This document shows positions 6,981-39,743 of a stretch of DNA of 64,000 nt, one piece after another. The notes under the pieces are model-generated. The model worked only from the letters and a program-made list of their open reading frames with translations, made no database searches and had not been told where the DNA came from. Each line of letters opens with the position of its first letter. Position 1 is the stretch's first letter. The translations under genes and the position numbers were made by a program. This DNA comes from Mesostigma viride (Eukaryota; Streptophyta; Mesostigmatophyceae; Mesostigmatales; Mesostigmataceae), in NCBI GenBank assembly GCA_009746045.1, contig RPFO01000017.1, positions 2,228,040 to 2,292,039 on the forward strand. Direction: 5' to 3'.

Positions 6981-7003
6981 TGAATGAATTGAATTGAATT
7001 GTA

Positions 7004-7028
7004 ACATAACTCCGTTGGGAGTATATGT
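7004..7028 (-). other. 3'-terminal LINE stem-loop
   Basis: On the minus strand ACATA-t-ACTCC / CAAC loop / GGAGTTATGT forms a 10-bp stem with one bulged T, directly before the AATTG-rich tail. Equivalent hairpins end the copies at 39.7, 44.6 and 45.98 kb. Confidence 0.6.
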
Positions 7029-7426
7029 AGCACATAGCCCTTGAGAGGGGGCATATGGCCTATCATACATCCTAAGCTACTTCCTGCAAGGGTGGGGATG
7101 TAAAGGACCCTTGCTCTAGGTGCACCAGGGCACTTGCATCCCCATGATCTTCAAGCTATGCCCAGCGAAGGGGGAGCCTGTCATGGGGGGGAAGATCAGC
7201 AGAGCTATACAAAAAGGCTAGGGCATGGCGTCTCAGCAGAGAGTTACTCCCTGCATGGGCACAACATAGCTAAATAAAGCTAGGCATCATCTGGAGTGTG
7301 GCACATCATAGGCACACATGTACATGATTAAATAAAGCGTGTGGCTTAGCTAGGATAGTGCCTCTAGGAGGCGTACATGTACATGGCCACGGTCTATCTA
7401 TTCTACACTACTACTGCTGTATTCCC

Positions 7427-8810: not shown

Positions 8811-8962
8811 CGTATATTGCGTAATAGCGTCGGAAAATTATATCAGCATGTGCGTCGTAGAAAGACGCGTCGATTGTGATATTCACGGCTAAATTCGGTG
8901 CTCAAACGTGAAAGTTATGAGCTCCGCCGTCAGCCATGGCTACCTCGTGGCTCGTGGCTCGT

Positions 8963-10163: not shown

Positions 10164-10433
10164 TGCTGGCATGCATGGATGGGTGTAGTGGGGTGCTGGC
10201 ATGCGTGGATGGGTGTCATGGGGTGCTGGCATGCATGGATGGGTGTCATGGGGTGCTGGCATGCATGGATGGGTGTCATGGGGTGCTGGCATGCATGGAT
10301 GGGTGTCATGGGGTGCTGGCATGCATGGATGGATGTCATGGGGTGCTGGCATGCATGGATGGGTGTCATGGGGTGCTGGCATGCGTGGATGGGTGTCATG
10401 GGGTGCTGGCATGCATGGATGGGTGTAGTGGGG
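10164..10433. repeat. 30-bp satellite variant, nine units
   Basis: Nine near-identical 30-bp units that keep TGCTGGCATGCATG of the 29-bp satellite, but the A/T and G-run half is replaced by GATGGGTGTCATGGGG. Because 30 is divisible by three, every frame encodes a perfect 10-residue repeat (GVLACMDGCH in one plus frame, HDTHPCMPAP in one minus frame). I see no start context, splice signal or non-repeat extension that would make it a gene. Confidence 0.93.
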
Positions 10434-10436
10434 TGA

Positions 10437-12884: not shown

Positions 12885-13500
12885 ATGCAGGTGTTGGCGA
12901 GTTTTCGGCCCGCTTTCAGGGGTCCAACGGCCGTTGGGTGTCTAAAATGCATGCGTTAGCGTGTTTCCGGCCCGCTTTCAGGGGCCCAACGGCCGTTGGA
13001 CGTCGAAAATGCATGTGTTGGCGTGTTTTCGGCCCGCTTTCAGGGGTCCAACGGCCGTTGGGTGTCGAAAATGCATGTAAAGGGCGTGTTTCAGGCCCAC
13101 TTTCAGGGGTCCAACGGCCGTTGGGTGTAGAAAATGCATGTGTTGGCGTGTTTTCGGCCCGCTTTCAGGGGTCCAACGGCCGTTGGGTGTCGAAAATGCA
13201 TGTGTTGGCGTGTTTCAGGCGTACTTTCAGGGGTCCAACGGCCGTTGGGTGTCGAAAATGCATGTGTTGGCGTGTTTCAGGCCCACTTTCAGGGGTCCAA
13301 CGGCCGTTGGGTGTCGAAAATGCATGTGTTGGCGTGTTTTCGGCCCGCTTTCAGGGGTCCAACGGCCGTTGGGTGTCGAAAATGCATGTGTTGGCGTGTT
13401 TCAGGCCCACTTTCGGGGGTCCAACGGCCGTTGGGTGTCGAAAATGCATGTGTTGGCGTGTTTCAGGCGTACTTTCAGGGGTCCAACGGCCGTTGGGACC
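12885..13500. repeat. 61-63-bp tandem repeat, ten units, each with CCAACGGCCGTTGG
   Basis: Ten units spaced 61-63 bp. Each has GGCGTGTTT, a CGCTTTCAGGGGT segment, the 14-bp palindrome CCAACGGCCGTTGG and GTGTCGAAAATGCATG. Palindromes start at 12,924, 12,986, 13,048, 13,111, 13,173, 13,235, 13,297, 13,359, 13,421 and 13,483. The three overlapping plus-strand ORFs here are reading-frame shadows of the repeat. The array ends about 65 bp before the transposase-like gene. Confidence 0.95.
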
Positions 13501-13566
13501 TACAAATTGGGTAATTGTTGGAAAGCAATAATTTGATAAAAAGTCAAAACTTCGTCTGGATTCTGT

Positions 13567-16500
13567 ATGCGCGCGGATGCAGGTGAAGCGCACAACAAAG
13601 ACCTAAGTCTCAAGTACGTCGAGATCAAGGGCAACCAACTTGCCCTCGACATGGCCAGCGCAATGGAATACTTGCTGAAGGACAACAATCACAAGACTGA
13701 AAACACGAAAACTGCAGTAGGCTTGAGGGCGCTTGAGCGGCTGCCAGGTGCGGTTGTGAAGGTTATGGGGAAACAGTACCGCCCTGCGCTGAAAAGAAAG
13801 GCGTCGGAGTCCTTCGCTCAGGAGGTTGTCGCTAATATCGTGCAAGGTTTCCAGGAATTGGGCAAGTCGGATGAGCACAGGAACGCGAAGTGCGCTGTGC
13901 TGTCAATGTGCTTGGGAAAGGACGGCATGAACAATCAAGGGCATTGCACTCTCGCGCGGCTGCTTCACGTCACGCCCAAGGATATCCAGACCGCAAGGGG
14001 AATGAGGATGGGGGGCGACCTTCCCGCCCTGAAGGCGCCCCCTCGTGCTTTACGGTCGGACAAGTTTCCGGAGGAGGTCAAAGACATCGTCGGGAGTTAC
14101 TGGTTGTCAGACCTAAACACGAGGGCGTCTCCCAACCATAAGGACGTGGTCAATGAGTTCGAAAGGAAGGGAAACGCCAGGATCCTCATTTCCTCCCAGG
14201 GCGGAAGGTACTATTTGGACTCGCTTGAAACGATTTACAAGCGGTTCTGTTCTGACGCGTCGCCGTACAAGGGAGGTATCGTGACGACTGCGGACGGGAC
14301 AAGGTACAAGGTGGGGTACACGAAGTTCGTGGAGTTCATGCCCAAGTGCGTAAAGGGCGTGTGGAAGGACCGGGACTTGTGCGCATGCGAAAAGCACGTC
14401 GTCTTCGAGTCTCTGCTCTCTGCCTTCGCCAAAGGCGTCAAGGAGTTGAAGAGCACGCTGGAGATCGAGGAGAGGGAGGGTATCCCTTCCGTGCCTGACA
14501 ATGCCCATGATTTCGTTCGACGTTTCACCTGCCACAGGGCTGAGAGGGGGGAGGGGGGGCAAGGAGGGGGGAGGACGGGCGGCCCGTTCGTTAACGTCCC
14601 AATGAACTGCTTGGAAGGGACGTGCAACGAGTGTGGGATTTCCGAGTTCATCGTGACGGACCAGATGAAGGGGTGGACAAAGAAGTACACGTGGTTCGAC
14701 TTCATAAAGGAGGGCACAGCGCCCCGTGGGACGGTAAGCATGTATATTTGCATCGTTGAATATATATATGTAGACTTTCATACTTCCAACGGCCGTTGGC
14801 GTTGGGAAATTCCCAGCTGCTGACTTCCATTCTTCGGTCAATCCATGGTGCGCGGGCATGTATATTTGCATCGTTGAATATATATATGTAGACTTTCATA
14901 CTTCCAACGGCCGTTGGCGTTGGGAAATTCCCAGCTGCTGACTTCCATTCTTCGGTCAATCCATGGTGCGCGGGTGTGTTGTGTTGCAGGAGGAGGATGT
15001 GGCGCCGCAAATGAACCTGCAGCAAAAACTCATCAAGTCAACCCTCTCGGAGCTCCATGAACTCATTACGGCGCGCTTCCCGGAATTCGCCATTCACGTC
15101 CATACATGGGCCTGGCAGCACCACGCTTACAAGGAGTGCATTGACGTGATGCCGCTGGGAACGGTGGTGGTCCTGATGGACTACTCGGAGAACTATTCGG
15201 ACCACCTGCAGAAACAGTTGCAGGCGCAGTACTGGTACCCAAGTAGTTACGTCCTGATGCCGGTGATCGTGATGTACCGTGATCCCGTATCGCTGGAAAT
15301 CAAAAGGGTGAAGCACGATTACATGGGGAAGGACGTACCGAGGAATGCCCAGACCCTGGAGTTCGTGATGAAGAATACCCTTAACGTGCTGAGGGAGGAG
15401 GGGGTGGAGGTGAGGAACTGGATCAGTTGGTCCGACAACTGTAAGGAGCAGTTCCAATCCCGGTATGTGTTGGCGATGGCTGCGGACCTGCTCGAGGCCG
15501 ACCCCGACTTGGAATCATTGGAGTGGAACTACTCGTGTGCAGGACATGGGAAGGGGGAGTCGGACGGGGAGGGGGGACGGTCAAAAGCATCCTCAAAAGA
15601 GCGCAGATGCAGGAGGACAATCGGAACCTGAATACGGTGGAGGCACTGGTGGCCTACCTGAACCGGGATTGGAGAACCGGCAAAGACTCGAGTCGACCAT
15701 CGGCACAATCGGACGTGGTTCGACGGGCATTTCTTCTCGATAACGTAAGTAAAGACAGTTGCTTTCTGGTGGTCAAGTGCAGTTCTATAATTTGTCTCTG
15801 GTTACACTTTACAGAGGACAGCTTCCTTGATGCAGTTTGAAGTTTCATAAGGCCAACGGCCGTTGGAGCTGGAAAATCGTATAATTGTTGAGTGCCAACG
15901 GCCGTTGGAGTTGAGAAATGTACTTATATAAAGTTTCCAAGGGCCAACGGCCGTTGGAGTTGGGAAATCTTATAATTGTTGAGTGCCAACGGCCGTTGGA
16001 GTTGGGAAATGTGCTGTGATGTTGTTTCATGGAATTACAATTGCAGATTCTCACGTCCGGTAAGGAGCGAGGCCCGATCCGAGATATCTCCACGGCACAC
16101 CAGTGGCGACTGGACAAAAAGGGCGAGCGGGTCGAGGTGGTAAAGCTCAGGCGTTTTTCATGCTTCAGTTGTGCGGAGTGCCGAGAGGGCAAGTGGACGA
16201 CATGCCCAAACGATTGGAGCAGCTCGTCGTGGACTGTAAAACTCCAGGCGAGTAAGTCGCGGAACCCCACGCGATATCCGGGAACCCGCCTGAACCACGT
16301 TCAAACGGCAAGAAACGAGTTGGGGCGTGGTTTGCAGGAGGGGGAGGCCGTCGCAGTCGCATCTGAGAGGGGGCACAAGGACCATGTGCCCGACCACCCG
16401 TACTGGTTGGCGAAAGTTGTTCGAGTCGCCCACCAACTCGACAAGGATGAGTGTTTAAACAAACATACAGGGGGGGGGGCGAGGTTTTTAAGAAAGGCAA

Positions 16501-16831
16501 CTGGGTAATGTACGTAAAATACTTCGAGAGGTGCTCCTCCTCCGGATCGGACGCCCGACGCTTCTTCTGGAACCCAGACGACCGAGAACCCTTAACTGCA
16601 ATCGTGTGCTACCTGAGCGTCGCAAAGGTCACGAAGGGCAAGTGGGAAGGACATCCGGACAACACGCGACAGGGCTGGTTCACAATTGCGAAGAAGGTGG
16701 ACGCCGAAATTACGGTACGTCATTCCAAACATTACTGTGTAAAATTGGTGTTTGTATGTCGCATGTGTTTTTTTGTCGACGGTCGTTCACCTTACTAATG
16801 TTACATACAGGGCAATCAGCCTATACTTTAG
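13567..16831 (+). CDS. Transposase-like protein, four exons, frameshifted
   Basis: Exons by GT-AG signals and continuous reading: 13,567-14,733, 14,990-15,744, 16,047-16,714 and 16,811-16,831. All introns are phase 0; donors are GTAAGC, GTAAGT and GTACGT. The last intron has a TACTAAT branch point and the last exon encodes GNQPIL then stop. The product has a Cys motif (CLEGTCNECG, end of exon 1). Exon 2 carries an acidic series like that of a widespread uncharacterised eukaryotic transposase-like family: LMDYSENYS, SWSDNCKEQF and GHGKGESDGEGG. Exon 3 has CFSCAECREGKWTTCPND and an aromatic-rich end. Two frame breaks sit in G-runs (about 15,577 and 16,470-16,480), so it is either a pseudogene or carries homopolymer errors. 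The start is uncertain: an earlier exon joining at the AG near 13,580 is possible. I see no terminal inverted repeats. Confidence 0.6.
14738..14973. repeat. Intronic 118-bp tandem duplication with palindromes
   Basis: Intron 1 of the transposase-like gene consists almost wholly of two near-identical 118-bp copies (14,738-14,855 and 14,856-14,973). Each contains GAATATATATATGTAG and CCAACGGCCGTTGG (14,786 and 14,904). Only the donor and the acceptor GTGTTGCAG lie outside the copies. Confidence 0.9.
15853..15999. repeat. Four CCAACGGCCGTTGG dyads in intron 2
   Basis: Palindromes start at 15,853, 15,895, 15,944 and 15,986. They form two copies of a 91-bp pair (period 91 between first and third, second and fourth), with GGGAAAT or a close variant 7-11 bases to the right. 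Confidence 0.9.
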
Positions 16832-17036
16832 CTTGGCTGCATGGCGCATGTCGCATATCTTAATTTCTCAAAGCCAACGGCCGTTGGACTTACGAAACTG
16901 GACAAGTGCCAAGTGCGGATTAGGTACTAAAATGGGCATTCTTGTTGAGGATGACCAGTTGTGTTTATATATTTTTGCATGGTGGCGGATGACTTGGCGT
17001 GTTGTTGCATTTTTACATACGGGTGTATGGTAGGCC
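16832..17036. other. Short spacer with one palindrome dyad
   Basis: No gene seen. It holds one CCAACGGCCGTTGG at 16,874-16,887 with GAAA at a 6-base distance on both sides. Confidence 0.6.
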
Positions 17037-17070
17037 TTAAACCCTAAACCCCTACACTCCTAAACCATAT
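17037..17070. repeat. Short telomere-like motif (CCCTAAA type)
   Basis: TTAAACCCTAAACCCC followed by CCTAAACC: one to two imperfect copies of the plant-type CCCTAAA telomere unit at the left edge of the GT-rich block. Too short to be a telomere. Confidence 0.45.
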
Positions 17071-18870: not shown

Positions 18871-18980
18871 GAAAATTGTTATATTTGACGATAGTCATAG
18901 TGTACTACTAAAAACTTGTACATACATATGCTGGAATGATTTTCTTTTTACTATTTCATTCACTATTGCTTATTTCTTCA

Positions 18981-20052
18981 CACATGTACATGCACGCAAG
19001 GGGCGGCTGCACATACACGTACACACACCGCGCACGCAAGGGGCGGCTGCACACACACGTACATCCACCGCGCACGCAAGGGGCAACTGCACACACACGT
19101 ACATACACCGCGCACGCAAGGGGCGAGTGCGCACACACGTACATACACCGCGCACGCAAGGGGCGGCTGCACACACACGTACACACACCATGCACGCAAG
19201 GGCCGGCTGCACTCACATGTACATACACCATGCACGCAAGGGGCGGCTGCACACACACGTACACACACCATGCACGCAAGGGCCGGCTGCACTCACATGT
19301 ACATCCACCGCGCACGCAAGGGCCGGCTGCACACACACGTACATACACCGCGCACGCAAGGGGCAACTGCACACACATGTACATACACCGCGCAACCACG
19401 GGGCGGCTGCACACACACGTACATACACCGCGCACGCAAGGGGCGGCTGCACACATACGTACCTACACCGCGCACGCAAGGGGCGACTGCACACACATGT
19501 ACATCCACCGCGCACGCAAGGGCCGGCTGCACACACACGTACACACACCATGCACGCAAGGGCCGGCTGCACACACACGTACATACACCGCGCACGCAAG
19601 GGGCGGCTGCACACACACGTACCTACACCGCGCACGCAAGGGGCGGCTGCACACACACGTACACACACCATGCACGCAAGGAGCGACTTCACGCACAGGT
19701 ACACACACCATGCACGCAAGGTTCGGCTGCACACACATGTACATCCACCGCGCACGCAAGGGGCGAGTGCAAACACATGTACATACACCGCGCACGCAAG
19801 GGGCAACTGCCCACACATGTACATCCACCGCGCACGCAAGGGCCGGCTGCACTCACATGTACACACACCGCGCACGCAAGGGCCGGCTGCACACACACGT
19901 ACATACACCGCGCACGCAAGGGGCAACTGCACACACACGTACACACCATGCACGCAAGGGGCTGCTGCACACACACTTACACTCACCATGCACGCGAGGG
20001 GCGGCTGCACACACACGTACACACACCGCGCACGCAAGGGACGGCTGCACAC
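18981..20052. repeat. 40-bp satellite array, part 1
   Basis: About 27 copies of a 40-bp unit: GCACGCAAGGGGCGGCTGC followed by a CA-rich half containing ACGTACATACACC. Variants include GGGGCAACTGC, GGGCCGGCTGC and CCATGCACGC. The consensus contains none of TAA, TAG, TGA, TTA, CTA or TCA, so it is open in all six frames. The array is cut at 20,052 by an LTR element and resumes at 22,197. Confidence 0.97.
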
Positions 20053-20693
20053 TGTCAGAAATATTGAGACTTGTAGGTCGAAAACGATAGTGACAATTAA
20101 AGATTACGCTTTATTATCATTGCATATTAAATCCCGGACTACCACCGTTTGTCCACCAAAACCATGATGTGGCTCCCGGGTGGGGACCATAAGCGTCAGC
20201 CATAACTCATGGCTCAGACCTTAGGTAAGTGCAACGTAGGTTGCGTCTTCCTCTTATGCACAAAGGTGCACAAAGAGTGAGTGCTCGACAGGCTGGCACA
20301 AAGATTGCGTAGCTTATCTGAAATGTGCTGAGAATGCGTTACGCTAGCCAGATTCCGTTAACACTCTCTAGTCGAGTAGTACGACTGAATAGTACGCTAG
20401 CTATAGGTCGTAGGACCCTGAACGTACAAGTCTTGATATAATGTGCCGGTTCTCGTAGCTTCGGCACTAATGTCTTAGTCACTCCGTGACCAAATCATGA
20501 GCCGTAACATGACACGTGCTCACTGTCCCAACACTGCATAATACTTTGCCGATATTAATTATGGCCACAAATACGGCAGGCGGGTGCGATTATTAGGGAC
20601 GCAACCCTAATACCTCCGTTTACAATGGATGGCCTATATGAAATATATTAACGGCAGGCAGTTGGGCACACAGGGTGAACTTCACCCCTGACA
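20053..20693. repeat. Left LTR (641 bp)
   Basis: Begins TGTCAGAAATATTGAG and ends TTCACCCCTGACA. Same length as, and by eye identical to, 21,556-22,196. Confidence 0.93.
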
Positions 20694-21555
20694 CCCCCTT
20701 GCACAATGCCTAAAGTGAAGACACTATGCAGGTACAATAGGGCCAACAGTTTCTCCCCGCTCAATTCAGGCAAGAGCCTAAAAAGCTGGGTGGGCAGCCA
20801 GGTATAAACTGGCTCTCACACACCCCTTGTTCAACTTAAGCCGGTACACGCTCTGGTAAATCCAATGGTATCAAAATGCCCCCCTTGTTTGGTAGTTGGT
20901 AGGACTTGCTAGGTATGATAACCAGCACATTCCCCTTACCCAGGAAGCTTGATCACGATGAACCAATGTACCCATTGGGCATGAACATAAAGGAGAATTA
21001 TGACATGCACAAGCATGCCAACGCGGGGCACAATGCGCCCCCCCCCCATGCTTTCAAAAGGATAAGCAATAACCAAAAAGGGCATCGGAATCAAAAAATT
21101 CCGACCTCTTCATTTCCATAGACAGCGCTGGCTTCTCGGCTCCGGGATCCCCGATGCCGCCGGCTCAATTCGCATAAAGATCGAGCACTTAAAACTCGAG
21201 CGAAACAGCGCCTTCCAACCGCACCCAAAAAAGATAACCACAAAGCTCATTTTCGGCTCACGTTCGCTCCTGGCATGGATTGAACTTGGATCTTCTGTAG
21301 CGCCAGCCTTCAATCGGCATGTCTGCCGCAGCTGCACTCACGAAATCTGGTGCTTTTGCTGGAATCAGGAAATATATGGCCCAGCGGCTCTGTAGGCCGC
21401 GGCCGACTGGCCTCTTCCAGGCCGAGTGTGCGGCTTGCCAACAACAATGCCGCGAACTTCCGGGTAATATTCCATGACGTTACTTGCGTATCTCGCTAAT
21501 TCGTAGCATGTCACGTTCTTCATCTTAACCCTAAGGTTTTTCTGTAATGGTTTTG
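20694..21555. other. Internal region of the LTR element, no gene
   Basis: 862 bases with only short ORFs; the longest on either strand is about 75 codons and unrecognised. I see no conventional primer-binding site next to the left LTR and no clear polypurine tract before the right one. Confidence 0.7.
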
Positions 21556-22196
21556 TGTCAGAAATATTGAGACTTGTAGGTCGAAAACGATAGTGACAAT
21601 TAAAGATTACGCTTTATTATCATTGCATATTAAATCCCGGACTACCACCGTTTGTCCACCAAAACCATGATGTGGCTCCCGGGTGGGGACCATAAGCGTC
21701 AGCCATAACTCATGGCTCAGACCTTAGGTAAGTGCAACGTAGGTTGCGTCTTCCTCTTATGCACAAAGGTGCACAAAGAGTGAGTGCTCGACAGGCTGGC
21801 ACAAAGATTGCGTAGCTTATCTGAAATGTGCTGAGAATGCGTTACGCTAGCCAGATTCCGTTAACACTCTCTAGTCGAGTAGTACGACTGAATAGTACGC
21901 TAGCTATAGGTCGTAGGACCCTGAACGTACAAGTCTTGATATAATGTGCCGGTTCTCGTAGCTTCGGCACTAATGTCTTAGTCACTCCGTGACCAAATCA
22001 TGAGCCGTAACATGACACGTGCTCACTGTCCCAACACTGCATAATACTTTGCCGATATTAATTATGGCCACAAATACGGCAGGCGGGTGCGATTATTAGG
22101 GACGCAACCCTAATACCTCCGTTTACAATGGATGGCCTATATGAAATATATTAACGGCAGGCAGTTGGGCACACAGGGTGAACTTCACCCCTGACA
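21556..22196. repeat. Right LTR (641 bp)
   Basis: Direct copy of the left LTR with the same TGTCAG...CTGACA ends, followed by CACAC and the resumed 40-bp satellite. Confidence 0.93.
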
Positions 22197-25100
22197 CACA
22201 CACACGTACATACACCGCGCACGCAAGGGGCGGCTGCACTTACATGTACACACACCACGCACGCAAGGGGCGGCTGCACACACACGTACATACACCGCGC
22301 ACGCAAGGACCGGCTCCACTCACATGTACATCCACCGCGCAACCACGGGGCGGCTGCACACACACGTACATACACCGCCCACGCAAGGGGCTGCTGCACA
22401 CACACTTACACACAAAATGCACGCTTGGGGCGACGGCACTCACATGTACATACACCGCTCACGAAAGGGGTGGCTGCACACACACGTACATCCACCGCGC
22501 ACGCAAGGGGCGGCTGCACACACACATACATACATGCACCATGCACGCAAGGGGCGAGTGCACACACATGTACATACACCGCGCACGCTTGGGGCGGCTG
22601 CACACACACGTACCTACACCGCGCACGCAAGGGGCGGCTGCACACACACTTACACACAAAATGCACGCTTGGGGCGACGGCACTCACATGTACACACACC
22701 GCGCACGCAAGGGGCTGCTGCACACACACGTACACACACCATGCACGCAATTGCCGGCATGCACACACACGTACATCCACCGCGCACGCAAGGGGCAACT
22801 GCACACACATGTACACACACCGCGCACGCTTGGGGCGGCTGCACACACACGTACCTACACCGCGCACGCAAGGGGCGGCTGCACACACATGTACACACAC
22901 CGCGCACGCAAGGGGCGGCTGCACACACACGTACACACACCATGCACGCAATTGCCGGCATGCACACACACGTACATCCACCGCGCACGCAAGGGGCAAC
23001 TGCACACACACGTACACACACCGCGCACGCTTGGGGCAGCTGCACTCACATGTACACACACCGCGCACGCTTGGGGCGGCTGCACACACACGTACCTACA
23101 CCGCGCACGCAAGGGGCGGCTGCACACACACGTACATACACCGCGCACGCAAGGGGCGGCTGCACACATACGTACACACACCGCGCACGCAAGGGGCGGC
23201 TGCACACACACGTACATACACCATGCACGCAAGGGGCTGCACACACACTTACACACACCATGCACGCAAGGGCCGGCATGCACACACACTGGCATACACC
23301 GCGCACGCAAGGGGCGGCTGCACACACACGTACATACACCGCGCACGCAAGGGGCGAGTGCACACACACGTACACACACCGCGCACGAAAGGGGCGGCTG
23401 CACACACACGTACACACACCATGCATGCAATTGCCGGCATGCACACACACGTACATCCACTGCGCACGCAAGGGGCAACTGCACACACATGTACACACGC
23501 TCGGGGCGGCTGCACACACACTTACACACACCATGCACGCAAGGGCCGGCATGCACACACACTGGCATACACCGCGCACGCAAGGGGCGGCTGCACCCAC
23601 ATGTACATACACCATGCACGCAAGGACAAGGATTCACACACACGTACACACACCGCGCACGCAAGGGGCGGCTGCACACAAACGTACACACACCATGCAC
23701 GCAATTGCCGGCATGCACACACACGTACATCCACCGCGCACGCAAGGGGCAACTGCACACACATGTACACACGCTTGGGGCGGCTCCACTCACATGTACA
23801 TCCACCGCGCAACCACGGGGCGGCTGCACACACACGTACATACACCGCGCACGCAAGGGGCTGCTGCACACACACTTACACACAAAATGCACGCTTGGGG
23901 CGACGGCACTCACATGTACATACACCGCGCACGAAAGGGGTGGCTGCACACACACGTACATCCACCGCGCACGCAAGGGGCGGCTGCACACACACATACA
24001 TACACCATGCACGCAAGGGGCGAGTGCAAAAACATGTACATACGCCGCGCACGCAAGGGGCAACTGCCCACACATGGACATACACCATGCACGCAAGGGG
24101 CGGCTGCACACACATGTACATCCACCGCGCACGCAAGGGGCGAGTGCACACACACGTACACACACCGCGCACGCAAGGGGCGGCTGCACACACACGTACA
24201 CACACCATGCACGCAATTGCCGGCATGCACACACACGTACATCCACCGCGCACGCAAGGGGCAACTGCACACACATGTACACACACCGCGCACGCTTGGG
24301 GCAGCTGCACTCACACGTACACACACCGCGCACGCAAGGGACGGCTGCACACACACGTACATACACCGCGCACGCAAGGGGCGGCTGCACTTACATGTAC
24401 ACACACCACGCACGCAAGGGGCGGCTGCACACACACGTACATACACCGCGCACGCAAGGACCGGCTCCACTCACATGTACATCCACCGCGCAACCACGGG
24501 GCGGCTGCACACACACGTACATACACCGCGCACGCAAGGGGCTGCTGCACACACACTTACACACAAAATGCACGCTTGGGGCGACGGCACTCACATGTAC
24601 ATACACCGCGCACGAAAGGGGTGGCTGCACACACACGTACATCCACCGCGCACGCAAGGGGCGGCTGCACACACACATACATACACCGCGCACGCTTGGG
24701 GCGGCTGCACACACACGTACCTACACCGCGCACGCAAGGGGCGGCTGCACACACACGTACATACACCGCGCACGCAAGGGGCGAGTGCACACACACGTAC
24801 ACACACCGCGCACGCAAGGGGCGGCTGCACACACACGTACACACACCATGCACGCAATTGCCGGCATGCACACACCCGTACATCCACCGCGCACGCAAGG
24901 GGCAACTGCACACACATGTACACACACCGCGCACGCTTGGGGCAGCTGCACTCACATGTACACACACCGCGCACGCTTGGGGCGGCTGCACACACACGTA
25001 CACACACCGCGCACGCTTGGGGCGGCTGCACACACACGTACCTACACCGCGCACGCAAGGGGCGGCTGCACACACACTTACACACAAAATGCACGCTTGG

Positions 25101-28100
25101 GGCGACGGCACTCACATGTACACACACCGCGCACGCAAGGGGCGGCTGCACACACACGTACACACACCATGCACGCAATTGCCGGCATGCACACACACGT
25201 ACATCCACCGCGCACGCAAGGGGCAACTGCACACACATGTACACACACCGCGCACGCTTGGGGCAGCTGCACTCACATGTACACACACCGCGCACGCTTG
25301 GGGCGGCTGCACACACACGTACATACACCGCGCACGCAAGGGGCGGCTGCACACATACGTACCTACACCGCGCACGCAAGGGGCGGCTGCACACACACGT
25401 ACATACACCGCGCACGCAAGGACCGGCTCCACTCACATGTACATCCACCGCGCAACCACGGGGCGGCTGCACACACACGTACATACACCGCGCACGCAAG
25501 GGGCTGCTGCACACACACTTACACACAAAATGCACGCTTGGGGCGACGGCACTCACATGTACATACACCGCGCACGAAAGGGGTGGCTGCACACACACGT
25601 ACACACACCATGCACGCAAGGAGCGACTTCACGCACAGGTACACACACCATGCACGCAAGGTTCGGCTGCACACACATGTACATCCACCGCGCACGCAAG
25701 GGGCGGCTGCACACACATGTACATACACCATGCACGCAAGGGGCGGCTGCACACACCTGTACACACACCGCGCACGCAAGGGGCGAGTGCACACACACGT
25801 ACACACACCGCGCACGCAAGGGGCGGCTGCACACACACGTACACACACCATGCACGCAATTGCCGGCATGCACACACACGTACATCCACCGCGCACGCAA
25901 GGGGCAACTGCACACACATGTACACACACCGCGCACGCTTGGGGCAGCTGCACTCACATGTACACACACCGCGCACGCTTGGGGCGGCTGCACACACACG
26001 TACATACACCGCGCACGCTTGGGGCGGCTGCACACACACGTACCTACACCGCGCACGCAAGGGGCGGCTGCACACACACTTACACACAAAATGCACGCTT
26101 GGGGCGACGGCACTCACATGTACACACACCGCGCACGCAAGGGGCGGCTGCACACACACGTACACACACCATGCACGCAATTGCCGGCATGCACACACAC
26201 GTACATCCACCGCGCACGCAAGGGGCAACTGCACACACATGTACACACACCGCGCACGCTTGGGGCAGCTGCACTCACATGTACACACACCGCGCACGCT
26301 TGGAGCGGCTGCACACACACGTACATACACCGCGCACGCAAGGGGCGGCTGCACACATACGTACCTACACCGCGCACGCAAGGGGCGGCTGCACACACAC
26401 GTACATACACCGCGCACGCAAGGACCGGCTCCACTCACATGTACATCCACCGCGCAACCACGGGGCGGCTGCACACACACGTACATACACCGCGCACGCA
26501 AGGGGCTGCTGCACACACACTTACACACAAAATGCACGCTTGGGGCGACGGCACTCACATGTACATACACCGCGCACGAAAGGGGTGGCTGCACACACAC
26601 GTACATCCACCGCGCACGCAAGGGGCGGCTGCACACACACATACATACACCATGCACGCAAGGGGCGAGTGCAAAAACATGTACATACGCCGCGCACGCA
26701 AGGGGCAACTGCCCACACATGGACATACACCATGCACGCAAGGGGCGGCTGCACACACATGTACATCCACCGCGCACGCAAGGGGCGAGTGCACACACAC
26801 GTACACACACCGCGCACGCAAGGGGCGGCTGCACACACACGTACACACACCATGCACGCAATTGCCGGCATGCACACACACGTACATACACCGCGCACGC
26901 AAGGGGCGAGTGCGCACACACGTACATACACCGCGCACGCAAGGGGGGCTGCACACACACGTACATACACCGCGCACGCAAGGGGCCAGTGCAAGCACAT
27001 GTACATACACCATGCACGCAAGGGCCGGCATGCACAGAAACGTACATACACCGCGCACGCAAGGGGCTGCTGCACACACACGTACACACACCATGCACGC
27101 ACGGGGCGGCTGCACACACACGTACATCCACTGCGCACGCACGGGGCCGGCGACTGCACACACATGTACATAAACCATGCACGCAAGGGGCGGCTGCACA
27201 CACATGTACATCCACCGCGCACGCAAGGGGCGAGTGCAAACACATGTACATACACCGCGCACGCAAGGACAAGGATGCACACACATGTACATACACCGCG
27301 CACGCAAGGGGCGGCTGCACACGCACGTACATACACCGCGCACGCAAGGGGCGGCTGCACACACACGTACATCCACCGCGCACGCAAGGGGCAACTGCAC
27401 ACACATGTACACACACCGCGCACGCTTGGGGCAGCTGCACTCACATGTACACACACCGCGCACGCAAGGGGCGGCTGCACACACACGTACATCCACCGCG
27501 CACGCAAGGGGCAACTGCACACACACGTACATCCACCGCGCACGCAAGGGGCGGCTGCACACACACGTACACACACCGCGCACGCAAGGGGCAACTGCAC
27601 ACACATGTACACACACCGCGCACGCTTGGGGCGGCTGCACACACACGTACCTACACCGCGCACGCAAGGGGCGGCTGCACACACACGTACATACACCGCG
27701 CACGCAAGGGGCAACTGCACACACATGTACATACACCGCGCACGCAAGGGGCAACTGCACACACATGTACACACACCGCGCACGCAAGGGGCAACTGCAC
27801 ACACACGTACACACACCGCGCACGCTTGGGGCGGCTGCACACACACGTAAATACACCGCGCACGCAAGGGGCGGCTGCACACACACGTACATCCACCGCG
27901 CACGCAAGGGGCAACTGCACACACATGTACACACACCGCGCACGCAAGGGGCAACTGCACACACACGTACACACACCGCGCACGCTTGGGGCGGCTGCAC
28001 ACACACGTAAATACACCGCGCACGCAAGGACCGGCTCCACTCACATGTACATCCACCGCGCACCACGGGGCGGCTGCACACACACGTACATACACCGCGC

Positions 28101-31100
28101 ACGCAAGGGGCTGCTGCACACACACTTACACACAAAATGCACGCTTGGGGCGACGGCACTCACATGTACATACACCGCGCACGCAAGGGGCGGCTGCACA
28201 CACACGTACACACACCATGCACGCAAGGGCGACTTCACGCACAGGTACACACACCATGCACGCAAGGTTCGGCTGCACACACATGTACATCACCGCGCAC
28301 GCAAGGGGCGGCTGCACACACATGTACATACACCATGCACGCAAGGGGCGGCTGCACACACCTGTACACACACCGCGCACGCAAGGGGCGAGTGCACACA
28401 CACGTACACACACCGCGCACGCAAGGGGCGGCTGCACACACACGTACACACACCATGCACGCAATTGCCGGCTGCACACACACGTACATCCACCGCGCAC
28501 GCAAGGGGCAACTGCACACACATGTACACACACCGCGCACGCTTGGGGCAGCTGCACACACATGTACACACACCGCGCACGCTTGGGGCGGCTGCACACA
28601 CACGTACATACACCGCGCACGCGGGGCGGCTGCACACACATGTACATCCACCGCGCACGCAAGGGGCGAGTGCAACACATGTACATACACCATGCACGCA
28701 AGGGCGGCTGCACACACATGTACATCCACCGCGCACGCAAGGGGCGAGTGCACACACACGTACACACACCGCGCACGCAAGGGGCGGCTGCACACACACG
28801 TACACACACCATGCACGCAATTGCCGGCATGCACACACACGTACATCCACCGCGCACGCAAGGGGCAACTGCACACACATGTACACACACCGCGCACGCT
28901 TGGGGCAGCTGCACTCACATGTACACACACCGCGCACGCAAGGGCCGGCTGCACACACACGTACACACACCATGCACGCAATTGCCGGCATGCACACACA
29001 CGTACACACACCGCGCACGCAAGGGGCGGCTGCACACACACGTACACACACCATGCACGCAATTGCCGGCATGCACACACACGTACGTCCACCGCGCACG
29101 CAAGGGGCAACTGCACACACATGTACACACACCGCGCACGCTTGGGGCAGCTGCACACACACGTACATACACCGCGCACGCAAGGGCGGCTGCACACACA
29201 CGTACATACACCGCGCACGCAAGGGGCAACTGCACACACATGTACACACACCGCGCACGCAAGGGGCAACTGCACACACACGTACACACACCGCGCACGC
29301 AAGGGGCGGCTGCACACACACGTACCTACACCGCGCACGCAAGGGGCGGCTGCACACACACGTACACCACCGCGCACGCAAGGGGCAACTGCACACACAT
29401 GTACACACACCGCGCACGCAAGGGGCGGCTGCACACACACGTACACACACCGCGCACGCAAGGGCCGGCTGCACACACACGTACATCCACCGCGCACGCA
29501 AGGGGCAACTGCACACACACGTACATCCACCGCGCACGCAAGGGGCGGCTGCACACACACGTACACACACCGCGCACGCAAGGGGCAACTGCACACACAT
29601 GTACACACACCGCGCACGCTTGGGGCGGCTGCACACACACGTACCTACACCGCGCACGCAAGGGGCGGCTGCACACACACGTACATACACCGCGCACGCA
29701 AGGGGCAACTGCACACACATGTACATACACCGCGCACGCAAGGGGCAACTGCACACACATGTACCTACACCGCGCACGCAAGGGGCAACTGCACACACAC
29801 GTACCTACACCGCGCACGCTTGGGGCGGCTGCACACACACGTACCTACACCGCGCACGCAAGGGGCGGCTGCACACACACGTACACACACCATGCACGCA
29901 AGGGCCGGCTGCACACACACGTACATCCCCCGCGCACGCTTGGGGCGGCTGCACACACACGTACCTACACCGCGCACGCAAGGGGCGGCTGCACACACAC
30001 GTACATCCACCGCGCACGCAAGGGGCAACTGCACACACATGTACACACACCGCGCACGCTTGGGGCAGCTGCACTCACATGTACACACACCGCGCACGCA
30101 AGGGGCGGCTGCACACACACGTACATCCACCGCGCACGCAAGGGGCAACTGCACACACACGTACATCCACCGCGCACGCAAGGGGCGGCTGCACACACAC
30201 GTACACACACCGCGCACGCAAGGGGCGACTGCACACACATGTACATCCACCGCGCACGCAAGGGCCGGCTGCACACACACGTACACACACCATGCACGCA
30301 AGGGCCGGCTGCACACACACGTACATCCACCGCGCACGCAAGGGCCGGCTGCACACACACGTACATACACCGCGCACGCAAGGGGCAACTGCACACACAT
30401 GTACACACACCGCGCACGCAAGGGGCAACTGCACACACACGTACACACACCGCGCACGCTTGGGGCGGCTGCACACACACGTACCTACACCGCGCACGCA
30501 AGGGGCGGCTGCACACACACGTACATCCACCGCGCACGCAAGGGGCAACTGCACACACATGTACACACACCGCGCACGCTTGGGGCAGCTGCACTCACAT
30601 GTACACACACCGCGCACGCAAGGGGCGGCTGCACACACACGTACATCCACCGCGCACGCAAGGGGCAACTGCACACACACGTACATCCACCGCGCACGCA
30701 AGGGGCGGCTGCACACACACGTACACACACCGCGCACGCAAGGGGCAACTGCACACACATGTACACACACCGCGCACGCTTGGGGCGGCTGCACACACAC
30801 GTACCTACACCGCGCACGCAAGGGGCGGCTGCACACACACGTACATACACCGCGCACGCAAGGGGCAACTGCACACACATGTACATACACCGCGCACGCA
30901 AGGGGCAACTGCACACACATGTACACACACCGCGCACGCAAGGGGCAACTGCACACACACGTACACACACCGCGCACGCTTGGGGCGGCTGCACACACAC
31001 GTAAATACACCGCGCACGCAAGGGGCGGCTGCACACACACGTACATCCACCGCGCACGCAAGGGGCAACTGCACACACATGTACACACACCGCGCACGCT

Positions 31101-34100
31101 TGGGGCAGCTGCACTCACATGTACACACACCGCGCACGCAAGGGCCGGCTGCACACACACGAAAAACCACCGCGCACGCAAGGGGCAACTGCACACACAC
31201 GTACATACACCGCGCACGCAAGGGGCGGCTGCACACACACGTACACACACCGCGCACGCAAGGGGCAACTGCACACACATGTACACACACCGCGCACGCT
31301 TGGGGCGGCTGCACACACACGTACCTACACCTTGCACGCAAGGGGCGGCTGCACACACACGTACATACACCGCGCACGCAAGGGGCAACTGCACACACAT
31401 GTACATACACCGCGCAACCACGGGGCGGCTGCACACACACGTACATACACCGCGCACGCAAGGGGCAACTGCACACACATGTACACACACCGCGCACGCT
31501 TGGGGCGGCTGCACACACACGTACCTACACCGCGCACGCAAGGGGCGGCTGCACACACACGTACATACACCGCGCACGCAAGGGGCAACTGCACACACAT
31601 GTACATACACCGCGCAACCACGGGGCGGCTGCACACACACGTACACACACCGCGCACGCAAGGGGCAGCTGCACACACACGTACATACACCATGCACGCA
31701 AGGGGCTGCACACACACTTACACACACCTTGCACGCAAGGGCCGGCATGCACACACACTGGCATACACCGCGCACGCAAGGGGCGGCTGCACACACGTAC
31801 ATACACCGCGCACGCAAGGGGCGAGTGCACACACACGTACACACACCGCGCACGCAATTAAGGGACGGCTGCACACACACGTACATACACCGCGCACGCA
31901 AGGGGCAACGGCACTCACATGTACATACACCATGCACGCAAGGGGCGGCTGCACACACACGTACACACACCATGCACGCAAGGAGCGACTTCACGCACAG
32001 GTACACACACCATGCACGCAAGGTTCGGCTGCACACACATGTACATCCACCGCGCACGCAAGGGGCGGCTGCACACACATGTACATACACCATGCACGCA
32101 AGGGGCGGCTGCACACACCTGTACATCCACCGCGCACGCAAGGGGCGAGTGCACACACACGTACACACACCGCGCACGCAAGGGGCGGCTGCACACACAC
32201 GTACACACACCATGCACGCAAGGGCCGGCATGCACACACAGTATACACACACCGCGCACGCAAGGGGCGGCTGCACACACACGTACATACACTGCGCACG
32301 CAAGGGGCTGCTGCACACACACTTACACTCACCATGCACGCAAGGGGCGGCTGCACACACACGTACATACACCGCGCACGCAAGGGACGGCTGCACACAC
32401 ACGTACATACACCGCGCACGCAAGGGGCAACTGCCCGCACATGTACATCCACCGCGCACGCAATTAAGGGACGGCTGCACACACACGTACATACACCGCG
32501 CACGCAAGGGGCAACGGCACTCACATGGACATACACCATGCACGCAAGGGGCGGCTGCACACACACGTACATACACCGCGCACGCAAGGGGCTGCTGCAC
32601 ACACACTTACACACACAATGCACGCAATTAGGGGCGACGGCACTCACATGTACATACTCTTGGGCGGCTGCACTCACATGTACATACACCGCGCATGCAA
32701 GGGGCAACTGCACACACACGTACACACACCATGCACGCAAGGGCCGGCATGCACACACACGTACATACACTGCGCACGCAAGGGGCAACTGCACACACAC
32801 GTACACACACCATGCACGGAAGGGACGGCTGCACTCACATGTACACACACCATGCACGCAAGGGCCGGCTGCACACACACGTACATACACCATGCACGCA
32901 AGGGGCTGCACACACACTTACACACCACCTTGCACGCAAGGGCCGGCATGCACACACACTGGCATACACCGCGCACGCAAGGGGCGGCTGCACACACGTA
33001 CATACACCGCGCACGCAAGGGGCGAGTGCACACACACGTACACACACCGCGCACGCAATTAAGGGACGGCTGCACACACACGTACATACACCGCGCACGC
33101 AAGGGGCAACGGCACTCACATGTACATCCACCATGCACGCAAGGGGCGGCTGCACACACACGTACACACACCATGCACGCAAGGACAAGGATTCACACAC
33201 ATGTACACACACAAAGCACGCAAGGGGCTGCTGCACACACACGTACATACACCGCGCACGCAAGGGGCGGCTGCACTCACATGTACACACACCACGCACG
33301 CAAGGGGCGGCTGCACACACACGTACATACACTGCGCACGCACGGGGCGACTGCACACACATGTACATAAACCATGCACGCAAGGGGCGGCTGCACACAC
33401 ATGTACATACACCGCGCACGCAAGGGGCGAGTGCAAACACATGTACATACACCGCGCACGCAAGGACAAGGATGCACACACATGTACATACACCGCGCAC
33501 GCAAGGGGCGGCTGCACACACACGTACATACACCGCGCACGCAAGGGGCGAGTGCGCACACACGTACATACACCGCGCACGCAAGGGGCGGCTGCACACA
33601 CACGTACATACACCGCGCACGCACGGGGCCAGTGCAAGCACATGTACATACACCATGCACGCAAGGGGCGGCTGCACACACATGTACATACACCGCGCAC
33701 GCAAGGGGCGAGTGCAAACACATGTACATACACCGCGCACGCAAGGGGCAACTGCCCGCACATGTACATCCACCGCACACGCAAGGGGCGGCTGCACACA
33801 CATGTACATACACCGCGCACGCAAGGGGCGGCTGCACACACACGTACATACACCGCGCACGCAAGGGGCGAGTGCGCACACACGTACATACACCGCGCAC
33901 GCAAGGGGGGCTGCACACACACGTACATACACCGCGCACGCAAGGGGCCAGTGCAAGCACATGTACATACACCATGCACGCAAGGGCCGGCATGCACAGA
34001 AACGTACATACACCGCGCACGCAAGGGGCTGCTGCACACACACGTACACACACCATGCACGCACGGGGCGGCTGCACACACACGTACATCCACTGCGCAC

Positions 34101-35150
34101 GCACGGGGCCGGCGACTGCACACACATGTACATAAACCATGCACGCAAGGGGCGGCTGCACACACATGTACATCCACCGCGCACGCAAGGGGCGAGTGCA
34201 AACACATGTACATACACCGCGCACGCAAGGACAAGGATGCACACACATGTACATACACCGCGCACGCAAGGGGCGGCTGCACACGCACGTACATACACCG
34301 CGCACGCAAGGGGCGGCTGCACACACACGTACATACACCGCGCACGCACGGGGCCAGTGCAAGCACATGTACATACACCATGCACGCAAGGGGCGGCTGC
34401 ACACACATGTACATACACCGCGCACGCAAGGGGCGAGTGCAAACACATGTACATACACCGCGCACGCAAGGGGCAACTGCCCGCACATGTACATCCACCG
34501 CGCACGCAAGGGGCGGCTGCACACACATGTACACACACCATGCACGCAAGGACAAGGATGCACACACATGTACACACACCATGCACGCAAGGGGCGGCTG
34601 CACACACACGTACACACACCGCGCACGCAAGGGGCGAGTGCAAACACATGTACATACACCATGCACGCAAGGACAAGGATGCACACACATGTACACACAC
34701 CATGCACGCAAGGGGCGGCTGCACACACACGTACATACACAATGCACGGTTGGGGCGACGGCACTCACATGTACATACACCATGCACGCAAGGACAAGGA
34801 TGCACACACATGTACATACACCGCGCACGCAAGGGGCGGCTGCACACACACGTACATACACCGCGCACGCAAGGGGCGAGTGCGCACACACGTACATCCA
34901 CCGCGCACGCAAGGGGCGGCTGCACACACACGTACATACACCGCGCACGCAATGGGCGAGTGCAAACACATGTACATACACCGCGCACGCAAGGGGCGGC
35001 TGCACACACACGTACACACACCATGCACGCAAGGGCCGGCATGCACACACACGTACATACACCGCGCACGCAAGGGGCGGCTGCACAGAAACGTACACAC
35101 ACCGCGCACGCAAGGGCCGGCTGCACACACATGTACATACACCTTGCACG
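22197..35150. repeat. 40-bp satellite array, part 2, with higher-order structure
   Basis: About 320 further copies of the 40-bp unit. Diagnostic variants recur in blocks. GGACCGGCTCCACTC followed by CGCAACCACGG appears near 22,307, 24,458, 25,420, 26,422 and 28,028 (spacing about 960-1,600 bp). The TTCACGCACAGG variant is near 19,690, 25,630, 28,230 and 31,990. The GCAATTGCCGGCATGC unit is repeated many times. This indicates block duplication. Occasional 39- or 41-bp units shift the frames of the very long ORFs, the largest of which covers 22,324-32,631. Because the consensus is stop-free in six frames, these are not annotated as genes. Confidence 0.97.
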
Positions 35151-35330
35151 TACAACACACAACACACACACACAACAAAAAATTATATACACACACACAC
35201 GCACACGCACACGCACACGCACACGCACACGCACACGCACACGCACACGCACACGCACACGCACAACACACACAACACACACAACACACACACGCACACG
35301 TGAACAACACACACACACAACAATTATAAT
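35151..35330. repeat. CA / CACACG microsatellite
   Basis: The 40-bp array decays into AACACACAACACAC, then about a dozen CACACG hexamers (around 35,197-35,265), then mixed CA repeats. Confidence 0.95.
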
Positions 35331-35430
35331 ATTAGTGTAGTATATCAAACAAAATAGTAATAAAGTATTTGCAAGCGTACTTCGTGTGAATTATGTGTAG
35401 ACGAGAATAGAAGCTAAACAAAACTCTAAT

Positions 35431-35498
35431 GGAGAAAGAGGGATTCGAACCCTTGGGAAAGTTACCCCATACATAGCATTCCACTCGGACATTTCTCC
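35431..35498 (-). pseudogene. tRNA-Ser-like remnant lacking the anticodon arm
   Basis: On the minus strand GGAGAAA and TTTCTCC pair as a 7-bp acceptor stem. AGGGTTCGAATCCCT is a good T-arm and GGGGTAACTTTCCC resembles a class II variable arm. The D-arm side reads TGTCCGAGTGG as in tRNA-Ser. The whole is only 68 nt; the D-arm 3' half and anticodon stem-loop are missing. It is a decayed or truncated tRNA gene, or a SINE head; I see no second copy in the window. Confidence 0.55.
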
Positions 35499-35558
35499 GA
35501 AAAAAAGGTCACGTAAGCTAAGGGTGGAGAGTTAAGGGTGTAGGTTGTAGGATGTATG

Positions 35559-35592
35559 GTGTAGGGTGTAGGGTGTAGGGTGTAGGGTGTCT
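35559..35592. repeat. GTGTAGG tandem, telomere-variant-like
   Basis: Four to five copies of GTGTAGG, preceded by looser relatives (GTTAAGGGTGTAGG). It resembles a T-to-G variant of the TTTAGGG telomere unit. Confidence 0.6.
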
Positions 35593-35935
35593 TGAGCTTT
35601 CTTTTTTGAGATCAATAGAGTCCCCTTCCATGATCATGTGCGTGATCTGGTTATGATTTTCATCTATGGCGTGTGTGGCCACATCGTGTATTTACAACTT
35701 TCTAGCCATGGATAACTAGGTAACCATAAATTGGTTACCATGATAACTAGGTAAAAACGTGTTGGTTTCAGAATACATGTGATCGCTGCATTGTCATCTA
35801 CAATGTACAAATCAATCACGGATTTCGGGGCTACGGATTTCGGGGCTAAGTTTTTGTGGGTAGAGATTGGCAAGGGTGTCTTTATCTTGCCACTTGGTCA
35901 CTTGGTGTGCATTACGTCTGTTCTTGCGTTGGAGT

Positions 35936-36241
35936 CAAAAAACTGTCCGTGTGTGGTGGTGGACTTTTCCTCACGGGCAGTCGCCATATGTCATACAAGC
36001 ACTTGTTCGGCGTACCACTAGCTCATGTATGTCACCATTGTAATTTTGCGTTGTAACAGCATTTCTCGGAGCCAACGGCCGTTGGACTCAAAAAACTGAC
36101 CGTGTGTGGTGGTGGACTTTTCCTCACGGGCAGTCGCCATATGTCATACAAGCACTTGTTCGGCGTACCACTAGCTCGTGGATGTCACCATTGTAATTTT
36201 GAGTTGTAACAGCATTTCTCGGAGCCAACGGCCGTTGGACT
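35936..36241. repeat. 153-bp tandem duplication ending in the palindrome dyad
   Basis: Copies 35,936-36,088 and 36,089-36,241 differ at only a few bases. Each ends with ATTTCTCGGAG and CCAACGGCCGTTGG, so the duplication copied a dyad with its flank. Confidence 0.9.
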
Positions 36242-37053
36242 TCGAAAAACTGATAGCCTTGTCTGAAGGTGTGTGCGTGAATGGCACATGTGCATCGTCG
36301 GGGGGAGTTTTCTCAAGAGCCACATGTGGTAGTGTAAGGTGGGCATGCTTAGTGCGTACGGGTGGGAGGGACAAGAGGTGCAGAAGTTGACGGCTTTTGA
36401 CCTTGGGAAATGACACGGCACACATAAGACAACAAAGTGATAATTTTAATGTCTTTACTGGTGTACTGTCAATTTCTCCGAGCCAACGGCCGTTGGACTC
36501 TCGAAACTCTCCTGTCTACAAAGTGTGTGCGTGCGATGGCACTTGTTCCATGTGCCGGGGGGGGGTGAGAAATCTGTCGTTCATTAATTTGTGCCTCGTC
36601 GGGGTGGGCATGCATGAATTTGTGCCTCGTCGGGGTGGACATGCATGAAAGCATTTTCATTGGTACTCGGGGTTCAATATTTTTGTCTTGCTGTTGAAAC
36701 GTCGACGTGCTCTTCTCCTGCTCTTTTTTTTTCCTACTCAACGGCCGTTGGTGCTTTTAAACTTGCCCAGCGTTATGACTAGGATGCCCTTCTTTACTGC
36801 TAGCCACCGCCCCTTGTGTACAATGCTAGAATTAGGCCGGGGTAATGGTACACGTCCACCGCGTCCCCAGTGCAAGGTTCGTGAATGCGCTGGTTCGTAA
36901 AAAATTCGGCACTTGGAAGGTTCGAACACCTGACCCCACTTTCGTTATTTCAACATGCCCTGAACGAAAAAGCTGCGTAAAGGATACATTAACCGTTCCC
37001 TGTTATTCTTGATTATATTGCGATATCATGGACGTACACACGCGGTTGGTGGT

Positions 37054-37172
37054 CCGTACTTGCCAACTGCACTTGCAAACTGACTGACTGACTGCCTCCG
37101 TTACGCACTTGCGTGTGTTTCCGTACTTGCCAACTGAACTTGCAAACTGACTGAATGACTGCCTCCGTTACG
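37054..37172. repeat. 67-bp-period duplication
   Basis: CCGTACTTGCCAACTG, then CTTGCAAACTGACTGA and GCCTCCGTTACG, occurs at 37,054 and again at 37,121. Confidence 0.85.
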
Positions 37173-38936
37173 ACTAACAAGTGAACGACGAGTGAGCTAC
37201 TAAAGTTTTGTTCAGTTCATTGTGTCTATATGTACATAGCCGTTTCTTCAAAACCGTTGCGTGGATACCTTGATTCTGGGTTCGCTGATACTTGTTTCCC
37301 ATTTTAAATCTCCCGTCCATAATTGGATACATGTAATGTAGGAGGATACCCACTTGCCCGAAATCCGCGTAACGGGTGATTAGTACTGCTGTAAGCGGAA
37401 CCACAGACAAATCTGTCTAACGGGCTAACATTATTGTCCTTCATGTACTGGTTTTTGCACGCAGGACGCCATTCGCAACACCGCCTGACGGAGTCGGATG
37501 GACCGGACGTGCGTGAGGCTGCTGTTCACAGTCGTGAAGTTGGCAGACATTAATATCAACACGGTCACGAGAATTCGTCCAGAGAATAATTGATGCTTGT
37601 GACGTGCTCGACGGCTGCGATGACCGAGATGATGCGTGTAGTGCACAGCGTCCGAGACGTCGCGACACCCGTGGCTGTCCTGTTGATGCGAACGCACGGT
37701 GACGAGACGGAGCCCATTATATAGGTGGATTACAAGTTAGAACGGCCCTCGCGGTTGCACTGTTTAATCGCGAACGTGGATTTTGCGGAGCCGACGGCCG
37801 TTGGGGATTGGAAATCTGATGATATCGGGGCTGCGCACGACATCGAGGAACTGGGGATCGACGTAGGTCTACAGGCTCACTTGTCCGTCAACATGTATGG
37901 CCTCGCTTGACTGTCATCATCTTGACATGTACATAACTAGTTCATATACCATGCATTTGACACTGCCTGCACGTGGATTTTCCAGACATACATTGAGGGT
38001 AATTATAACTCGAAAGCACTACGTACGATTGAGACGTCCGGTCGTAGAGCAGATGCACTGGAGCTTTCTGATCTTCCAATTGATGGGTCTGTAATTATGT
38101 AAGATATTCAGATATCGCGATGACTCGAGCATCGATGCATGGAATGTAATAATGTATTTCATTCAATTATACATCCAATTTAACTCCGCAATTGAGGGGC
38201 ACACATGTCCATCAGCCCGAGACAACATTTCCCAAGTAATTTTCGATTAGTGATTTAGTGTGGGCCTCCCCTAGGGCGCCCTCGATCCTCCTTCTCGCTG
38301 TGTATATAGGGTTAATTGAAGGTTCCTTCACTCCTTGCATGTGCCTTCTACATGTGCTTTATGCCCAATGGCACTAGATTTACAGTAATATATAGCATGA
38401 GCTGCTGTATTATATGCTGGAAATGTGTTGGAGGATGCATGTGTGGCCAGCTATGATGTTTTGTGCCACATGCAATGGGATAGGAAACCAAAACGGTAGT
38501 GCTAGCCAACCACCCTTAAAAAACTTGGTCCTATTTTTAGGACTGAGCTATTTTGGGATTTTGCTAGCTAGCTTGTGCAGTTCTGTAGCATGTCATGTTG
38601 TGAATGCATGTTGATGGCATGCCTGTGATATAAACTAACTGCCTTTGAAATTCCAGGGCCTATATATATTTGCATAAGTGGTCCATATTGCATGATGTAT
38701 GTATGTCTCAAACCCCATTTTTCCGTACCCCCCAGGTGGGGTTGGCGCTATTTATAGCACCCTAAAGTCAAAGATATGGGACCAGTGGCATGTCCGGAGA
38801 AATTCAACATAAAGAAATTCAACATAAATGCATGCTTGGTACCAAGGGGTAGCCAGAAATTGGTTTTAGGCCATGGAGAAACATATGTGCAAAGATGTGC
38901 AACTCAGTCCGATTTTTACGACTGAGTTGCTACCAT

Positions 38937-39718: not shown

Positions 39719-39743
39719 ACATGATCTCCCAACGGAGTCATGT
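39719..39743 (+). other. 3'-terminal LINE stem-loop
   Basis: ACATGA-t-CTCC / CAAC / GGAGTCATGT, directly before the AATTTAATTT-type tail. Confidence 0.6.

Follow-up and report, generated by a model that had tools for sequence, protein, structure and literature searches.

Why should one perfect palindrome, CCAACGGCCGTTGG, recur some 22 times in a single 64,000-nt stretch of Mesostigma viride DNA (the window; contig RPFO01000017.1, positions 2,228,040 to 2,292,039, our label for the contig being C1546), with short A-tracts standing at a fixed distance on either side of it? The answer that we favour, and consider fairly probable from the pattern of the DNA itself, is that the palindromes are two-fold-symmetric duplex DNA binding sites of one transposon, a copy of which lies in the window, and that they would be read by a dimeric protein, for which the element is a likelier source than the host. 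Other stretches (L005-L019, L054 and L056-L058) and contigs (C-numbers) named below belong to the same 440-Mb assembly.

Searching the window at up to 2 mismatches yielded 20 exact sites and two with one mismatch (36738 and 37791), all of them within 12924-37804, whereas shuffled versions of the window (n=100) held a mean of 0.46 and a maximum of 4; the figure of about 22 copies given in an earlier note on this DNA was borne out. The exact palindrome occurs 9,685 times across the assembly, compared to no occurrence of the same pattern read backwards and one copy of an equal-composition palindrome, CCAAGCGCGCTTGG, the single control of this type. The 34-bp pattern of palindrome and A-tracts, for which that note had proposed a genome-wide scan, fits all 22 window sites at up to 3 mismatches and has 800 exact matches in the assembly versus none when read backwards. 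We found no match to it in viral contigs, and a text search of 5.39 million papers did not return CCAACGGCCGTTGG.

All 50 distinct palindrome places in our assembly listing fall in stretches (L005-L009) of one repeated element. Ten arbitrary 10-kb stretches (L010-L019) comprised eight free of the palindrome, one (L014) that is all N, and one (L013) with seven palindromes that is itself a copy of the element. The same few 34-mers recur at similar relative spacing on many contigs, indicating that large blocks are repeated. With window 36,300-40,300 as query, the best 40 of 8,989 candidates scored gave 66 matches, and 39 of the 39 long matches besides the window itself stop at about window 38,271. 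This right end is common to all 22 junctions compared (20 plus the window and L005, the last differing by one base) and gives way to unrelated DNA; it is formed by the right terminal inverted repeat at 38246..38271 on the minus strand, with flanking DNA beginning to its right, and its terminal 26-mer occurs 59 times in the assembly.

A query from the element's left part (L009) matched with 94-100% identity at the best 40 of 312 candidates, and at ten of ten left junctions unrelated DNA gives way to GGGGGGCCCACAATCAATC, whose G-run is 6 or 7 long depending on the copy. The three copies read at both ends have 4-bp target site duplications (TGTG, TAGC and ATGA). The terminal inverted repeats are imperfect (GGGGGGGCCCACAATCAATC at the left and GGGGAGGCCCACACTAAATC at the right, reversed; short form GGGGNGGCCCACA...), and by eye the flanks are unrelated between insertions. 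With its defined ends, terminal inverted repeats and target site duplication of constant length, the element is a DNA transposon. Copies measured by their ends are 35,295 bases in C2133 (including a run of 10,437 N), about 36.6 kb in C1989 and about 65.3 kb in C1391, and the C1573 copy would reach about 95 kb, assuming a left end at the expected, unread position. Spacing between fixed sites varies among copies, with large satellites in the variable parts, and exon 2 of the element's main gene, which carries an RNase-H-like domain, was found at 131 of 150 scored places. The element is a giant, young, high-copy DNA transposon. Of the transposon resolution or target site suggested in the earlier note, the link to a transposon holds; no sign was seen of a role in resolution or targeting, the insertions lying in unrelated flanks with 4-bp duplications.

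The spacing of the A-tracts argues for a bound site. GAAA or AAAA at 6 bases outside the palindrome, as described in the earlier note, is present on 40 of 44 sides of the window sites, and AAA at offset 7 on 42 of 44. Because many of these sites are tandem or duplicated copies, we repeated the offset test, with sites grouped by flank, on a composite element assembled from three pieces: the C2133 copy, the L007 part of the copy on C1, and the gene region of the window. Its 65 sites at up to 2 mismatches (53 exact, nine with one mismatch, three with two) form 17 families by flank similarity, with flanks unrelated between families. RAAA lies at offset 6 on 26 of the 34 family sides, compared to 7 at offset 5 and 6 at offset 7; AAA starts at offset 7 on 28 sides, compared to 13 at offset 6, 7 at offset 8 and at most 5 at other offsets. 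Of the 34 sides, 30, 32 and 32 have A at positions 8, 9 and 10 outside the palindrome, and 31 have A or G at position 7, where GAAA has its G; from position 13 outward the 17 families show no clear base preference.

The pattern is better written as TTT-N7-CCAACGGCCGTTGG-N7-AAA, 34 bp, in which the centres of the outer A-tracts are 31 bp from each other; this would amount to about three helical turns. Core and A-tracts are common to the 17 families, and beyond about 12 bases no flank is; judged on these unrelated families, a dyad of fixed spacing in non-homologous flanks looks like a bound site, as had been proposed. The homologous-repeat alternative raised in that note is half borne out: the copies inspected genome-wide belong to a single transposon, but flanks within the element form 17 unrelated families, and the argument for a bound site therefore stands. 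The flanking bias is seen, by eye, in both orientations. Between the spacer arms, 26 of 102 positions are alike versus a shuffled mean of 28.8, or 40 versus 42.7 with G-U allowed. Insertion of a fixed 34-bp cassette was rejected, since the 7-bp spacers differ between families.

Within tandem arrays the core also varies less than its surroundings. In a 62-bp tandem array described below, core variants number 0 of 140 letters versus 33 of 340 outside, and two other groups of array units gave 2 of 308 and 0 of 56 versus 66 of 660 and 19 of 96; pooled, 2 of 504 core letters are variant and 118 of 1,096 in the rest. Between element copies we counted 0 substitutions in 546 core positions, 52 in 1,808 positions of the 30-bp flanks and 43 in the 12,686 of the remainder, away from sites. 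Copies on C943, C762 and C599, considered as old subfamilies for this comparison on account of low protein identity, are 98.6-99.4% identical in DNA, which leaves this comparison with no old copies.

Judging by the 50 inspected places and the main gene, the sites are dense in the non-coding parts of this one element family. They lie in introns, gene flanks and tandem arrays, in keeping with the introns, intergenic DNA and tandem repeat listed as contexts in the earlier note. In the main gene, on the plus strand, the inferred introns (about 0.66 kb in all) contain six sites and the exons, which total about 2.6 kb, are free of them (some junctions used for this count are a base or two out of place); ten further sites lie upstream and one downstream. 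All six intron sites are kept in three of three further copies (L056-L058). The ten upstream sites form the 62-bp tandem array (12914..13506). Exon 1 (13567..14733), an open frame with an inferred start codon and a GT donor at 14734, matched no Pfam family above cut-off. By splice-site reading it is followed by intron 1 (14734..14989), with sites 14786 and 14904 in a 118-bp tandem pair; exon 2 (14990..15744), with its RNase-H-like domain, probably of the DDE type; intron 2 (15745..16046), with sites 15853, 15895, 15944 and 15986; exon 3 (16047..16714), an open frame; and a short inferred exon 4 (16811-16831). The last site of the group (16864..16897) lies downstream of the inferred stop codon. 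In the window copy the frame changes at two G-runs, 15557-15577 in exon 2 and 16470-16479 in exon 3, and many other copies read through exon 2.

Elsewhere in the window, 36062..36506 has three dyads (36072, 36225 and 36483), of which two belong to a 153-bp tandem repeat, and one-mismatch dyads lie at 36728..36761 and at 37781..37814, the latter about 460 bp from the right end. In L007, exact sites lie before a MYND frame and after an F-box frame, and the one-mismatch site 6757 is within the F-box frame taken stop to stop, upstream of its first ATG. In the element's left part, a long open frame is flanked on either side by 45/46-bp arrays of sites, perhaps introns; no site at up to 2 mismatches falls within 2.2 kb of the left end.

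Symmetry, the outer A-tracts, the lack of pairing between the arms and the bias in both orientations together favour a dimeric protein on duplex DNA, and the finding of the dyad only in the element favours an element-encoded reader. Such a protein would read the dyad, and dense coverage of non-coding DNA would let it find and act on element copies, either keeping them transcribed or unsilenced or assembling them for transposition, in a manner that we liken to VANC on VANDAL elements and TnpA on Spm. As the placement in introns, gene flanks and tandem arrays matches that of VANC21 motifs in VANDAL21, we prefer self-recognition for anti-silencing or activation, its chief competitor being a use in transposition. 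Tentatively, and with more doubt than conviction, we propose that a transposon 35 to 65 kb long, or longer, may carry its own address code, with a dimeric element protein reading thousands of dyads and acting on all copies in trans to gather, open or protect them. If true, this would help explain so long an element at more than 100 places as near-identical copies.

Several points weigh against binding sites read by an element protein. The dyad-binding protein is itself putative, context was inspected for 50 of the 9,685 palindrome places, and the exons and introns are predictions from splice-site reading. The grouping into 17 families depends on the similarity cut-off, and array units were chosen by core likeness, which favours the array result. 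Array units that fell out of register in the alignment exaggerate the contrast between core and 30-bp flanks (P = 1.2e-6), and that between the core and the whole rest of the copy alignment reaches only P = 0.05, because the element copies are so young. In addition, element position 2285 has a one-mismatch site inside an open frame, possibly a coding one.

Among the alternatives, the RNase-H-like protein or a partner could bind the dyads and join the ends of a very long element, in the way proposed for TnpA on the subterminal repeats of Spm. This proposal, which we regard as unlikely, draws on the presence of dyads only in the element, on their occurrence near the right end (36.0-37.8 kb, with the end at 38,271) and on the RNase-H-like exon 2 with its shared acidic residues (D64, D149 and E190/D192). 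The fold lists for this exon are filled by Argonautes, and transposase families absent from those lists may still match; the exon-2 protein had no match in viral contigs, in a single-protein query of the kind that finds close relatives only. However, dyads occur throughout the element, including introns in its middle, and are missing from the 2.2 kb at the left end. A related family with the same type of gene also lacks them in 3.5 kb of one copy at up to 3 mismatches. This second transposon family, found at L054 (C1:1363200-1366700) and 18 further places, has long open frames of 466 to 1,064 aa, an RNase-H-like part 46% identical to that of the element, and, as a sister family, a stretch similar to the DHPYWLA...KGxWV...RY of exon 3.

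A host MYB protein of the 3R-MYB/MSA type, binding the back-to-back AACGG cores and coupling element expression to the cell cycle, seems to us decidedly improbable. Each half of the palindrome contains CAACGG/CCGTTG, which fits the YAACKG-type MYB consensus, a resemblance of sequence, and the competing element-encoded reader is putative. Against this, the location of all 50 listed palindromes in the element gives no support to use of the full dyad at host genes, and a MYB domain alone leaves the A-tracts at a fixed 7 bases outside unexplained. A Pfam scan covering part of the element's frames returned no MYB domain.

We give very little credence to a passive repeat, in which tandem and segmental duplication within the element spread the palindrome and recency alone preserves it. 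In its favour, the copies compared share 94-100% identity, tandem arrays account for many of the sites, and the contrast between the core and the rest of the element does not reach significance; yet in the arrays the core is nearly invariant and the spacers variable, and the families share core and A-tracts with no common flank. Action of the sites as RNA hairpins in introns or untranslated regions, with a role such as splicing or RNA stability, has least to commend it and was rejected, for despite the perfect palindrome and the many sites in inferred introns, pairing of the arms outside the core is no better than in shuffles, and the gene's upstream region and the arrays have sites too.

Binding sites read by an element protein have precedents in other transposons. 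CACTA (En/Spm) elements have CACTA ends and a 3-bp duplication, and Spm carries element-specific short sites, repeated many times, clustered near its ends and bound by an element protein. Like the TnpA sites, those described here are element-specific, short and in many copies, but they run through introns and the interior, and the element has GGGG... ends and a 4-bp duplication. VANDALs are Mutator-like, with degenerate terminal inverted repeats and a target site duplication of about 9 bp, and because its own duplication is 4 bp we do not file the element with them. They encode VANC anti-silencing proteins, which bind the VANDAL motif and remove DNA methylation. In the sections of two papers used here (PMC5735166; PMC10398659), VANC21 motifs of Arabidopsis VANDAL elements are found at high density, in introns and in tandem arrays. 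So far as those sections go, the likeness extends to a short dense motif in introns, intergenic and terminal non-coding DNA and to arrays of changing copy number, whereas the VANC21 motif is YAGTATTAY, with the word "palindrome" absent from the main text searched, and the present site is a 34-bp two-fold one. We found no VANC-like protein in the present element.

Sola elements, in the part of PMC3627910 consulted, share 4-bp target duplications and short imperfect terminal inverted repeats with our element, but the Sola2 duplications given there are AT-rich, unlike TGTG, TAGC and ATGA. Teratorn, Starships and other giants resemble it in exceeding 35 kb and carrying passenger genes, and Teratorn (about 40 copies) also in being numerous, according to the portion of a giant-element review drawn on here (PMC10175614); that portion calls transposons above 50 kb exceptional, presents Teratorn as a high-copy case and mentions no dispersed dyad. 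The present element differs from Teratorn and Starships in its RNase-H-like gene; in the element frames scanned we noticed neither a herpesvirus nor a tyrosine recombinase part. It is of comparable size, in more copies, with a dense dyad seen only inside it. Literature searches for giant or palindrome-bearing transposons, at the level of titles and listings, returned nothing recognised as this element. A dispersed self-marking motif is already known in kind; what is new is a 34-bp two-fold dyad in an element of such size and copy number that has 4-bp duplications and GGGG ends. With one motif, thousands of sites and one element family, the system offers a direct test of transposon self-recognition outside Arabidopsis.

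The element also contains satellites and other frames. A 40-bp satellite (18992..35150), its length differing between copies, is split by other sequence into blocks at 18992-20052 and 22197-35150. An interrupted 29/30-bp satellite (21..10435) would also lie inside the element, judging by the order of parts in other copies, and spacing left of the gene is variable. A 6-bp AAGGAC satellite extends over several kb (C2133 copy 6261-9623; L009:1285-4151; L013:2-3616). Fragments of a bacterial-type rpoB, probably plastid, lie at L013:5084-5609 and L008:9211-9537. On the minus strand of L013:5846-9819, several frames with repeated C-x4-C-x9/12-C-x2-H motifs matched no Pfam family and are candidates for the protein that would bind the dyad. 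Weak or spurious Pfam rows were set aside (DUF5773, ADH_N and TASOR, and MerT, lci and others on the translated 62-bp array), including the lci row, although it passes its cut-off.

The window contains no known RNA family at Rfam gathering scores and no tRNA according to ARAGORN (bacterial code); by eye, a stretch at 35430-35500 ending GGATTCGAACCC resembles part of a minus-strand tRNA gene. Another dispersed repeat, 99.6% identical between L007:878-4812 and L019:5510-9442, ends within 5 bases of a dyad site. A chlorophyll a/b protein of green type is a pointer to a green plastid. Outside the element, a kinesin motor gene lies at window 52698-55475 (Pfam 6.7e-87), and window 58338-63636 is occupied by a different dispersed repeat, which has a reverse transcriptase frame, recurs in L011 and L015 and shows about 98-99% identity among its copies.

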